NCBI GenBank assembly: GCA_005882275.1 | Contig: VBAK01000106.1 | Span: forward strand, 1 to 64,000 | Reading direction: 5' to 3' | Length of the DNA: 64,000 nucleotides | Source: Candidatus Segetimicrobium genomatis | GTDB lineage: Bacteria > Sysuimicrobiota > Sysuimicrobiia > Sysuimicrobiales > Segetimicrobiaceae | Shown: positions 891 to 3,783 of the stretch, piece by piece | How the letters are laid out: the number at the start of each line of letters is the position of its first letter | How positions within the stretch are numbered: the stretch's first letter is position 1 | Notes under the pieces: generated by a model | Told to the model about the DNA's origin: nothing | Databases searched by the model: none | The model's input: only the letters and a program-made list of their open reading frames with translations | Program-made: the position numbers and the translations under genes

Positions 891-1814
891 TCAAGAAGAC
901 GGTCCGCCTGGTCCACCGCCCTCAGCCTTGCCGTGCGACCGGCCGCGACGGCGATGCCGCCGCCGGCGGCGCCGTCCCGGCTGTCCCGGCTGCCCCGGCT
1001 GTCCCGGCTGTCCCGGCCGCCCGCGCTGTCCCTGCGGCGTCCTCGCCACGGACGATCCTGGCGCCTGCGCCCCGACCCGCGAAACGCCCTGCGCTCCTGG
1101 TGATCCCGCCGGATGGGCCCCTACCGGGGAAGCGCCCTGCGCTCCCTGCGCCGCCGGATGGGCGCCCTGCCCAGTCGCCGCGGGGCGCGCAGGCACGGCG
1201 GACCGGTCTTCAAACGCTCCAACGTGCGGTGCTCCCTCCCCGGGCTGCTCGTCCTCGGACGCCTCCAGAGCCTCCGGCCCCTCCGTGCCGCCTTCGTCCT
1301 GCACGCCGGCTCCGACGGTCTCCTTCTCCTCCTCGTCGTCGGCCGCGGCGACCCCGCCCCCGGGGGCCGCGGCGGGGCGCGGAAGCGGGGGCTTCCGCTC
1401 GGCGGCAAGCTTGATCCGTTGGAGAAACCGCTCGACGAACTGCACCAGGAATTGCCGGGCGGCGTCCTCGGAGATCATGGCGATGCCGAGGTCCACCTCG
1501 AGGCGGTACCGCACCTCGGTGCCGTCCTCGACGGCGGCGAGCGAGCACTGCCCGTTGAACATCCGCAGCGTGCCCCGCACCTGCTTGAATTCCAGGGCGC
1601 TCGGAGGCCGGAGGGTCACGCGCTGCACCGACTCGATCGGCAGGCCGATGAGGTACCCGGTCAGGGCCACCACCTGCGCGTTCCGGCGCTTCTCCACCGA
1701 CTCCGCGGTCATCCACAGGGGCGCCCCGTAGCGGGGCAGATGCTCGATGCGCCCGATATGCGCGAAGACCCGGTCGGGGGCCGCGTGCATCACCCGGCGC
1801 GCTTCGATGGCCAA
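891..1814 (-). CDS. SRPBCC/polyketide-cyclase-like protein with disordered Gly-Pro-Gln and poly-Arg tail
   Basis: 307 aa. Residues 1-145 look like an SRPBCC (START/polyketide cyclase-like) lipid- or cofactor-binding fold: AAPDRVFAHIGRIEHLP at the start, the fold's usual beta-strand pattern, and a long C-terminal helix ending FLQRIKLAAERK. The remaining ~160 residues are low complexity, rich in Ala, Gly, Pro and Gln. They contain four PGQ-type tripeptides encoded by 9-bp DNA repeats near 975-1015, then an Arg/His cluster (RRRRRRHRRRGRS) like the RNA-binding tails of some RNases. The start at 1814 is TTG and has no clear Shine-Dalgarno. It lies 20 bp after the second MetE-like gene and probably belongs to that operon. 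Ligand and role are unknown. Confidence 0.7.
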   Translation of the reverse strand: MAIEARRVMHAAPDRVFAHIGRIEHLPRYGAPLWMTAESVEKRRNAQVVALTGYLIGLPIESVQRVTLRPPSALEFKQVRGTLRMFNGQCSLAAVEDGTEVRYRLEVDLGIAMISEDAARQFLVQFVERFLQRIKLAAERKPPLPRPAAAPGGGVAAADDEEEKETVGAGVQDEGGTEGPEALEASEDEQPGEGAPHVGAFEDRSAVPARPAATGQGAHPAAQGAQGASPVGAHPAGSPGAQGVSRVGAQAPGSSVARTPQGQRGRPGQPGQPGQPGQPGRRRRRRHRRRGRSHGKAEGGGPGGPSS

Positions 1815-1834: not shown

Positions 1835-2812
1835 CTATCGGGAGAGCTCCTCCCGCATGCGCCGGGTCCCTTCCGCCATCGAGGTCAGTTTCCCCACGGT
1901 CTCCTCGACGGTCCGGGTCTTCAATCCGCAGTCGGGCGTCACGTAGACCTGCTCGAGCGGGATCACCTTGAGCGTTCGCCGGATCCCCTCCACCACCTCA
2001 TCGGCCGTCTCCACGCGATGGCTGTGCGCGTCGAGCACGCCGAGCCCGATGTCCTTGGTGAACCGCGGCGATCGGAACGTCTCCAGGAGGGCGAAATCGT
2101 CGTTTTTCAGGGCGAGGTCGATCTGGTTCACGGCGAGGCGCAGCATCGCGGGGTAGATCCGCGGGACGTCCCCGTAGCAGACGTGCGTGATCGTGTAGGC
2201 GCGCAGGCCGCGGGTCACGATCTCCATCGCCTCGACGGCCAGATCGAAGTCCTCGTCCGGCCGCGTGTGAATCGCGGGTTCGTCGATCTGGATATAGCGG
2301 GCCCCGGCGCGCTCCAGGTCCACGGCCTCATCGTGGATCGCCCGGGCGAGATCCAGGACCAGTTCCCGGCGCGTCGGGTAGTGCTCGTTGAACGACCACT
2401 CCGCGATCGTGTACGGCCCGGTCAGCATGCCCTTGACCGGCCTGGGCGTCAGCCCCTGGGCGAACTTCCACCAGCCGACGGTGACCGGCGCGCGCCGTCC
2501 GACCGGCCTGACCACCGCGGGCTTGGGATAGTAGCGGTTGCCGTACGACCGCACCATCCCGGCGATCGCGAAGCCGTCCATCTGGTCCGCGAAGTACGCG
2601 ACCATGTCCCCGCGGTACATCTCGCCGTCCACGAGGATGTCCATGCCGATCTCCTCCTGCCGGCGGATCCACTCCTCGGTCGCCCGGCGCTCCAGCGCCT
2701 CGAGCTCCTCTTGCTCCAGCTGTTTGCGCGCCAGTTTGCGGCGCGCCTCGAGCAGATAGGGGGGCTTGGGGAAGCTTCCCACCGTCGTCGTGAGCAGTGG
2801 CTGCGCGGTCAT
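1835..2812 (-). CDS. Core-MetE-type (single-barrel) cobalamin-independent methionine synthase family protein with zinc ligands
   Basis: 325 aa. It corresponds only to the C-terminal catalytic barrel of MetE; the N-terminal barrel of E. coli-type MetE (about 750 aa in total) is absent. The zinc/homocysteine ligands are present: His210 and Cys212 in THVCYGD, and Cys295 in TPDCGLKTR. The family opening TTTVGSFPKP and the IDEPAI motif are also there. The expected reaction is methyl transfer to homocysteine giving methionine. Known core enzymes may use methylcobalamin or another methyl donor rather than methyl-folate triglutamate. Its ATG overlaps the TGA of the upstream paralogue (ATGA at 2812-2809), so the two are translationally coupled. 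Family assignment is firm; the methyl donor is not known. Confidence 0.88.
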   Translation of the reverse strand: MTAQPLLTTTVGSFPKPPYLLEARRKLARKQLEQEELEALERRATEEWIRRQEEIGMDILVDGEMYRGDMVAYFADQMDGFAIAGMVRSYGNRYYPKPAVVRPVGRRAPVTVGWWKFAQGLTPRPVKGMLTGPYTIAEWSFNEHYPTRRELVLDLARAIHDEAVDLERAGARYIQIDEPAIHTRPDEDFDLAVEAMEIVTRGLRAYTITHVCYGDVPRIYPAMLRLAVNQIDLALKNDDFALLETFRSPRFTKDIGLGVLDAHSHRVETADEVVEGIRRTLKVIPLEQVYVTPDCGLKTRTVEETVGKLTSMAEGTRRMREELSR

Positions 2813-3783
2813 GCCGCCTCCTCCCGGGCCTGCCGCACGCCGGCGGCCAGGACCTCCAGCTTCTGCCTCGCCACCCGCCGGGGGAGAAACTCCAACCCGG
2901 CGCTGGGGCCGACGTGCAGGTGGGACGGAGAGACGATCTCGGCGGCCCGCCGGCAGGCCTTGGCCACCGCATCGCGGGTCTCCATCTTGGTGTTCCGGGC
3001 GTCGAGGATCCCCAACCCCAGCTGCTTGGTGAACCGGGCCCGGCGGAGCACCTCCCAGTTTCTCGCCCCGGCGACAAAGTCGAGCCCGATGATGTCGACG
3101 GGGGTGTCGAGGATGGCCGGGTAGAGGCCGTCGACGTGCCCGAAGTACGTGTACAGCGCCCGGGTCGCGCTCACCCCCTCCCACAGCACGCCCATGGCCC
3201 GCTGAAACAGGGGGAGTCGATCCCGATGGGTCAGCAGCCCGGGCTCGTCCACCTGAATCAGCTTCGCGCCGGCCGCGGCCAGCGCCTTGAGCTCCTGGTT
3301 GAGCCCGGCGGCGAGCGCCATGACGAACTGGTCCAGGTTCCCATAGAACTCATCCCGGCTGAGGAGCGCGAGGGTCAGCGGACCGGTGACCACCGGCTTC
3401 ACCGGCCGCGGACTGTGCGCGGAGGCGAACTCGTAGGCGGCGACGCTGATGGGGCCGCGCCACGCGATCTCCCCGGTCGCCACGGGCTGACGGTAGTAGA
3501 CGTTGGTGTCGAAATAGCGCTGCAGGCTGTGGATCGTAAACCCGCCGAGCCCGCGGGCGAAGTAGGTCTGCCCGTCCTCCCAGCGGATCTGCCCATCGGT
3601 GACCACGTCGACCCCCGCCACGGCCATCTCGGCGAGCACCTCGGCGGTCACCTCATCTTCGATCCCGCGCATCTCCTCGGGGGTGATGTCGCCGCGCTGG
3701 AGCTTCTCCACCCCTGCGCGCCACCGTCCCGGGGCAGGCGGATCCGGGATCTTCGGATAACTGCCCACGACCGTCGAGTTCAC
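2809..3783 (-). CDS. Core-MetE-like paralogue lacking the zinc ligands
   Basis: 324 aa, GTG start preceded by AAGAGGGGTGGG. It shares the MetE barrel with its downstream neighbour: VGSYPKIPDP at the N-terminus, VVTDGQIRWED, VVTGPLTLALL and LIQVDEPGL. The three zinc positions differ. The counterparts of His210, Cys212 and Cys295 are Tyr211, Tyr213 (LYTYFGHV) and Ala295 (VGPSAGLEFL). It therefore probably cannot activate homocysteine thiolate by the usual mechanism. It may bind the methyl donor, act as a partner subunit of the downstream protein, or have another C1-transfer role. The gene order (zinc-less first, zinc-bearing second) recalls the two barrels of full-length MetE. The partner role is an inference. 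Confidence 0.8.
   Translation of the reverse strand: MNSTVVGSYPKIPDPPAPGRWRAGVEKLQRGDITPEEMRGIEDEVTAEVLAEMAVAGVDVVTDGQIRWEDGQTYFARGLGGFTIHSLQRYFDTNVYYRQPVATGEIAWRGPISVAAYEFASAHSPRPVKPVVTGPLTLALLSRDEFYGNLDQFVMALAAGLNQELKALAAAGAKLIQVDEPGLLTHRDRLPLFQRAMGVLWEGVSATRALYTYFGHVDGLYPAILDTPVDIIGLDFVAGARNWEVLRRARFTKQLGLGILDARNTKMETRDAVAKACRRAAEIVSPSHLHVGPSAGLEFLPRRVARQKLEVLAAGVRQAREEAA

Follow-up and report, generated by a model that had tools for sequence, protein, structure and literature searches.

A probable split MetE with a variant zinc site in a Segetimicrobium-like bacterium of the phylum Sysuimicrobiota

Described methionine synthases and the gene pair

The cobalamin-independent methionine synthase MetE is a single protein in most bacteria. 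Its canonical form consists of two homologous barrels, the first of which lost zinc and homocysteine binding after the duplication, and in the N-barrel of the T. maritima enzyme Cys620 is replaced by Tyr232, His618 by Phe230, and Glu642, the fourth zinc ligand and a residue that has been termed invariant, by Asp253 (PMC539065). The split MetE enzymes of Price et al. (2021) include that of the bacterium Sulfobacillus sp. hq2; their parts are usually encoded next to each other, a methyl-pterin donor is predicted for them, and they are the sole methionine synthase in 106 of the 107 genomes of that study, which also states that the two parts from Pyrococcus furiosus have been reported to form a complex (PMC7857596). 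The core methionine synthases MesA, MesB, MesC and MesD are catalytic single barrels of the same superfamily that work without a folate barrel.

The two overlapping genes examined here come from a Segetimicrobium-like bacterium of the phylum Sysuimicrobiota and lie on the minus strand of the window, which is the whole stretch of 64,000 nucleotides that was analysed. With their neighbours they are as follows.

5040-3841, minus strand: acyl-CoA dehydrogenase, upstream neighbour of the pair
3783-2809, minus strand: zinc-less MetE-type barrel gene, GTG start, 324 aa
2812-2809, minus strand: ATGA stop/start overlap, read directly from the sequence
2812-1835, minus strand: zinc barrel gene (downstream), ATG start, 325 aa
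1814-891, minus strand: SRPBCC (polyketide-cyclase-like) protein, encoded next to the catalytic gene on its downstream side

The pair is very likely a split MetE that would act as a heterodimer, its methyl donor and activity likewise being predicted, and it is a known kind of enzyme with a variant zinc site, as split MetE has already been described, mainly in archaea. Like PF1268/PF1269 of P. furiosus, it consists of adjacent N-type and catalytic-type single-barrel genes for proteins of less than 400 aa, and a pterin-type donor is predicted here as it was by Price et al.; unlike that pair, it is bacterial and not archaeal, its N part fails the scoring rule of those authors (PMC7857596), and Ala takes the place of its fourth zinc ligand. 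Compared to full-length MetE, it is made of two separate chains with no linker, and compared to MesA, MesB, MesC and MesD, it has the folate barrel as a partner.

The ATG of the second gene (2812-2810) overlaps the TGA stop of the first (2811-2809) and a GGAGGAGG run is read shortly 5' of the start of the second, and together the ATGA overlap and this run make translational coupling of the two barrel genes likely. Both proteins match PF01717, the zinc barrel at 2.2e-81 and the zinc-less barrel at 4e-31, and both were complete barrels in AlphaFold2 models (mean pLDDT 92.7 and 94.3, respectively). With 324 and 325 aa and overlapping genes they agree with the description of split MetE as two separate proteins of no more than 400 aa from adjacent genes. 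When compared to three relatives of the same family, dN/dS was 0.15-0.21 for the zinc-less gene and 0.11-0.15 for the zinc barrel gene; both are therefore under purifying selection, and the possibility that the zinc-less gene is a decaying copy is ruled out. The original prediction had described adjacent MetE-type barrels overlapping by ATGA, an upstream protein that keeps its barrel despite the loss of its zinc ligands and is not decaying, and an acyl-CoA dehydrogenase and an SRPBCC protein on the flanks, and all of this is borne out. Riboswitch control of the pair was also sought, and it was rejected because neither the window nor four relatives matched any Rfam family at the gathering score.

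Ancestry and association of the two barrels

In a careful tree of 53 rows, the zinc-less barrels and the N-halves of MetE fall on one side of a branch with 100/100 support, and the zinc barrels, the C-halves of MetE and three single-barrel relatives fall on the other. A quick tree of 105 rows likewise has a branch with support of 100 that parts N-type from catalytic-type barrels. These trees took 53 and 105 of 171 aligned rows, fragments of less than 240 aa having been left out of the alignment; set A1 comprised 30 of the 32 zinc-less relatives and set A2 27 of the 32 zinc-type matches, with X rows, short rows and L127 excluded. Judged by sequence and tree placement, the upstream zinc-less protein corresponds to the N-terminal barrel of MetE, present as a separate and presumably non-catalytic subunit, and the downstream protein to its C-terminal catalytic barrel. 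The label core-MetE that had been given to both proteins is therefore wrong: enzymes of that type work with one barrel, and here the N-barrel partner is present. Since the zinc-less partner is a known MetE N-terminal barrel, the new C1 reaction that had been suggested for it is not supported.

The zinc-less protein scores 108.9 bits with the catalytic-domain family PF01717 and 89.4 bits with the N-domain family PF08267, for which the cut-off is 27, and it therefore fails the automatic rule of Price et al. for N parts, by which PF08267 must score higher than PF01717; that rule is a detection aid and misses true members (PMC7857596). For catalytic parts the same authors ask for at least 200 bits against PF1269 of P. 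furiosus (PMC7857596), and by blastp the zinc barrel scores 236 and 249 bits against the archaeal catalytic parts in L128 and L124, which served as proxies for PF1269. Against NF003317 it scores 401.6 bits, slightly below the cut-off of 406. In fold searches the model of the zinc barrel fits C-barrels with Z about 40, and that of the zinc-less barrel matches the N- and C-barrels of MetE alike (Z 35.6-37.6). The assignment to N- or C-barrel is thus carried by sequence and tree, as the fold search does not separate the two for the zinc-less barrel.

Among the 193 genomes that were searched with the zinc-less protein, the zinc-less barrel was identified in 43, some weaker matches being left unclassified, and the zinc barrel was present in 42 of these 43. 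It was encoded directly downstream in 39 and elsewhere in the genome in three (G015, G051 and G112). No partner was found in the remaining genome, G024, in which about 150 bases separate the end of the zinc-less gene from that of the contig. In a second collection, which partly consists of the same genomes, the partner adjoins 31 of 32 zinc-less loci, the exception (L108) being the contig of G015. Thus zinc-less members without a partner, whose widespread occurrence would have counted against a dedicated partner as first suggested, are not widespread, and the zinc branch accompanies the zinc-less branch. By record title the zinc-less loci belong to relatives in Sysuimicrobiota and to Chloroflexi, Omnitrophota, Elusimicrobia, Zixibacteria, Nitrospinae, Rokubacteria and archaea. 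A gene pair that was puzzling at first would in this way be settled as a split MetE, and split MetE would be spread over several bacterial phyla.

Active-site residues and the altered zinc site

In the alignment the zinc-less barrel has Tyr211, Tyr213, Asp235 and Ala295 in the zinc columns, and the earlier reading that Tyr, Tyr and Ala stand opposite His210, Cys212 and Cys295 of the downstream protein holds. Tyr213, Tyr211 and Asp235 fall in the columns of Cys620, His618 and Glu642 of T. maritima MetE, respectively. A zinc-less first barrel with Tyr for Cys620 and Asp for Glu642 is likewise found in full-length MetE of E. coli and T. maritima (PMC539065). At the position of Glu642, Asp is present in 65 and Glu in the other 4 of 69 zinc-less rows, a set that excludes the single-barrel relatives L067 and L072. 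The folate-contact residues Lys18 and Lys104 of T. maritima MetE are Arg22 and Arg89 in the zinc-less barrel of the window; the column of Lys104 is Arg in 68 of the 69 rows, the remaining one being unreadable, and that of Lys18 is Arg in 61. The contact made by Arg15 is lost, with Gly19 in its place. On the whole the zinc-less barrel has the residues that one would look for in the N-terminal barrel of MetE, a point that had been overlooked. The partner barrel of a pair from family f6 (L049:3138-4106, genome G032) has His, Cys, Asp and Cys in the zinc columns and may therefore not be zinc-less.

The zinc barrel keeps His210, Cys212 and Cys295, as had been noted, but it had been overlooked that the fourth ligand, Glu, is replaced by Ala234 (codon 2113-2111, minus strand); the alignment is unambiguous around this site. 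As one of the four zinc ligands of MetE (His, Cys, Glu, Cys) is changed, we regard the protein as a variant. At the fourth-ligand column, 61 of 87 catalytic-type rows have Glu and 26 have Ala, in an unfiltered count that includes 13 MetE C-halves and single-barrel relatives. The Ala rows are all 26 catalytic subunits that were recovered from families f1 (that of the window), f2, f4 and f5 (11, 7, 7 and 1 genomes, respectively); Glu is present in family f6, which belongs to this order as well. These 26 sequences, which come from one order, probably trace to one event. Along with the loss of Glu there is a shift at His182, Glu138, Val216 and Phe189. His182 (codon at 2267-2269, minus strand, in the DEPAIHTR loop) is present in all 26 Ala rows and in none of 39 comparison rows, which were picked for Glu, Met and Trp so that only the other columns are informative; it stands in place of Ser, Thr, Ala or Pro. 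His182 lies five residues past the homocysteine-binding Asp177 and might serve as a substitute fourth zinc ligand.

The remainder of the catalytic site resembles the second barrel of full-length MetE, with His-Cys-Cys, the homocysteine Ser, Glu and Asp, the DMV motif and Trp539 (PMC539065). The homocysteine contacts Ser411, Glu462 and Asp577 of T. maritima are kept as Ser13, Glu64 and Asp177, the pterin-stacking Trp539 as Trp139, and Arg493 as Arg93. In contrast to full-length MetE (PMC539065), besides the changes of Glu642 to Ala and of Lys104 to Arg and the loss of the Arg15 contact, the pterin-binding Glu583 is Thr183, Glu being found at this column in none of 65 split catalytic rows (a set selected for Met468 and Trp539, both of which are 100% by construction), and the Arg496 contact is lost, with Pro96 in its place. 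At the fourth-ligand position, characterised MesB has Asp and MesC of one lineage has Gly, and zinc binding by these Gly-bearing MesC proteins was doubted by Price et al. (PMC7857596). In open-licence papers on the MetE zinc ligand or on methionine in Sysuimicrobiota we did not find a Glu to Ala zinc-site variant. That most families of Sysuimicrobiales rely on a MetE-type synthase whose zinc is bound by only three protein residues, or by His182 as a fourth, is to our minds evenly poised; if true, the "invariant" glutamate, which is central to the zinc-inversion model of MetE, would be dispensable in nature. The Glu to Ala change is a natural test of how far MetE needs its fourth ligand and zinc inversion, and it is this three-ligand zinc site that merits experiment.

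That every one of the 26 catalytic subunits from these four families has Ala234, and that His182, Glu138 and Val216 shift along with it, would also be expected of a methyltransferase whose acceptor or metal site has changed, methionine then coming from the homocysteine methyltransferase domain of a homocysteine methyltransferase/MTHFR fusion protein or from a third MetE-like protein. A homocysteine methyltransferase domain is indeed present in 41 of 43 genomes of the order, including that of the window, and in the fusion of G012 its cysteine motif is intact. The genome of the window also encodes a third MetE-like protein (G000:C45:10845-11768, L095), which is PRK06520/1ypx-like and has the four ligands His-Cys-Glu-Cys. 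We nevertheless consider such a change of function unlikely, as the residues that bind homocysteine (Ser, Glu and Asp) are intact, the fusion also lies beside pairs that keep Glu (L050 and L119), and a family scan of one fusion protein gave no folate-binding and no corrinoid domain. Moreover, proteins like L095 are widespread in the order without being universal, and five well-assembled relatives lack them. In G001, G012, G014, G015 and G027, which are at least 93% complete, PF01717 is represented by this pair alone, and PF02965 and PF02607 are both absent. If the pair did not make methionine in these genomes, the homocysteine methyltransferase domain of the fusion would be the other candidate.

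Gene neighbourhood and methyl donor

In families f1, f2, f4, f5 and f7 the pair, or the zinc-less gene, has an acyl-CoA dehydrogenase gene as its upstream neighbour, and in f1, f2, f4 and f5 the catalytic gene is followed by an SRPBCC gene, the order in f1 and f4 being acyl-CoA dehydrogenase, pair, SRPBCC. The tail of the SRPBCC protein of the window (891-1370) is long, of low complexity and rich in Gly, Pro, Ala, Gln and Arg. In f2 and f7 the homocysteine methyltransferase/MTHFR fusion gene is placed between the acyl-CoA dehydrogenase gene and the pair; counted from domain positions, it immediately precedes the pair in each of the eight f2 genomes with the zinc-less gene and in the single f7 genome, with the gene order drawn for G012, G021, G030 and the f7 contig (L098). 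The copy in G012 is PRK08645, with 717.7 bits against a cut-off of 453. The fusion adjoins pairs in other lineages as well, upstream in L050/L103 and L102 and downstream in L119 and L123. In f1, the family of the window, it is not adjacent to the pair, and in the f1 genomes G001, G006, G009 and G011 it is on the contig of the pair, about 22-36 kb away. The original prediction that this is not a standard methionine context needs qualifying, since the context has a partial relation to methionine through the homocysteine methyltransferase/MTHFR gene beside the pair in the sister families.

This placement in the sister families points to methyl-tetrahydrofolate as the donor, and the presence of the fusion beside the pair in some phyla supports a folate donor for bacterial split MetE. 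Methyl-tetrahydrofolate is also favoured because PF02219 (MTHFR) is present in 42 of 43 genomes of the order and markers of MetH and of corrinoid proteins are mostly absent: the MetH activation domain (PF02965) is absent from 39 of the 43 genomes, that of the window included, and the corrinoid cap domain (PF02607) from 32 of them, including all 12 f1 genomes and with them that of the window. As the contacts of Glu583, Arg15 and Arg496 are lost, this donor is not proven. The loss of the pterin-binding Glu, together with the single-barrel length of the downstream protein and the use of methylcobalamin by core enzymes (PMC7857596, PMC7005905), would fit a MesA/MesB-like core synthase that is methylated by a corrinoid protein, with the zinc-less barrel as a docking partner. 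We think this very unlikely, since by the tree the zinc-less barrel descends from the N-barrel branch of MetE and the MTHFR gene adjoins the pair in sister lineages. The two corrinoid families that were searched, PF02607 and the CoFeSP family PF03599, are absent from all 12 genomes of f1, that of the window among them; docking of a corrinoid protein, as had been proposed earlier, is accordingly disfavoured. The absence of CoFeSP from this family also sets the pair apart from MesA, MesB, MesC and MesD.

The least credible alternative, to which we give almost no weight, is that core-MetE was duplicated independently in this Sysuimicrobiota lineage and then lost the zinc site, without relation to the MetE N-barrel, as the identity of about 34% between the two barrels and the higher score of the zinc-less protein with PF01717 than with PF08267 might suggest, but a tree that forces both split barrels into one clade is rejected by the AU test (p-AU 6.1e-9), the 100/100 branch speaks against it, and archaea as well as many bacterial phyla have zinc-less partners.

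In the split MetE that we favour, the two barrels would most likely sit face to face as a heterodimer, in which the catalytic barrel would hold zinc and homocysteine and the cleft between the barrels would bind methyl-tetrahydrofolate, produced by the PRK08645-type fusion protein with its MTHFR domain, the methyl group then going straight to homocysteine to give methionine. Because the fourth protein ligand is lost with the change of Glu to Ala234, zinc would be held by His210, Cys212 and Cys295 and by another group, which may be water, the substrate or a substitute residue, for which His182, being co-conserved, is a candidate. The observations on which this scheme is based are barrel homology and placement, co-occurrence, gene order, the homocysteine residues and some of the folate-contact residues, and purifying selection. 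Finally, in the f6 genomes G016, G029, G035 and G037, where PF01717 is not found, corrinoid cap domains, CoFeSP and homocysteine methyltransferase are found in short frames, and this pattern of domains suggests that these genomes may use a split MetH instead.
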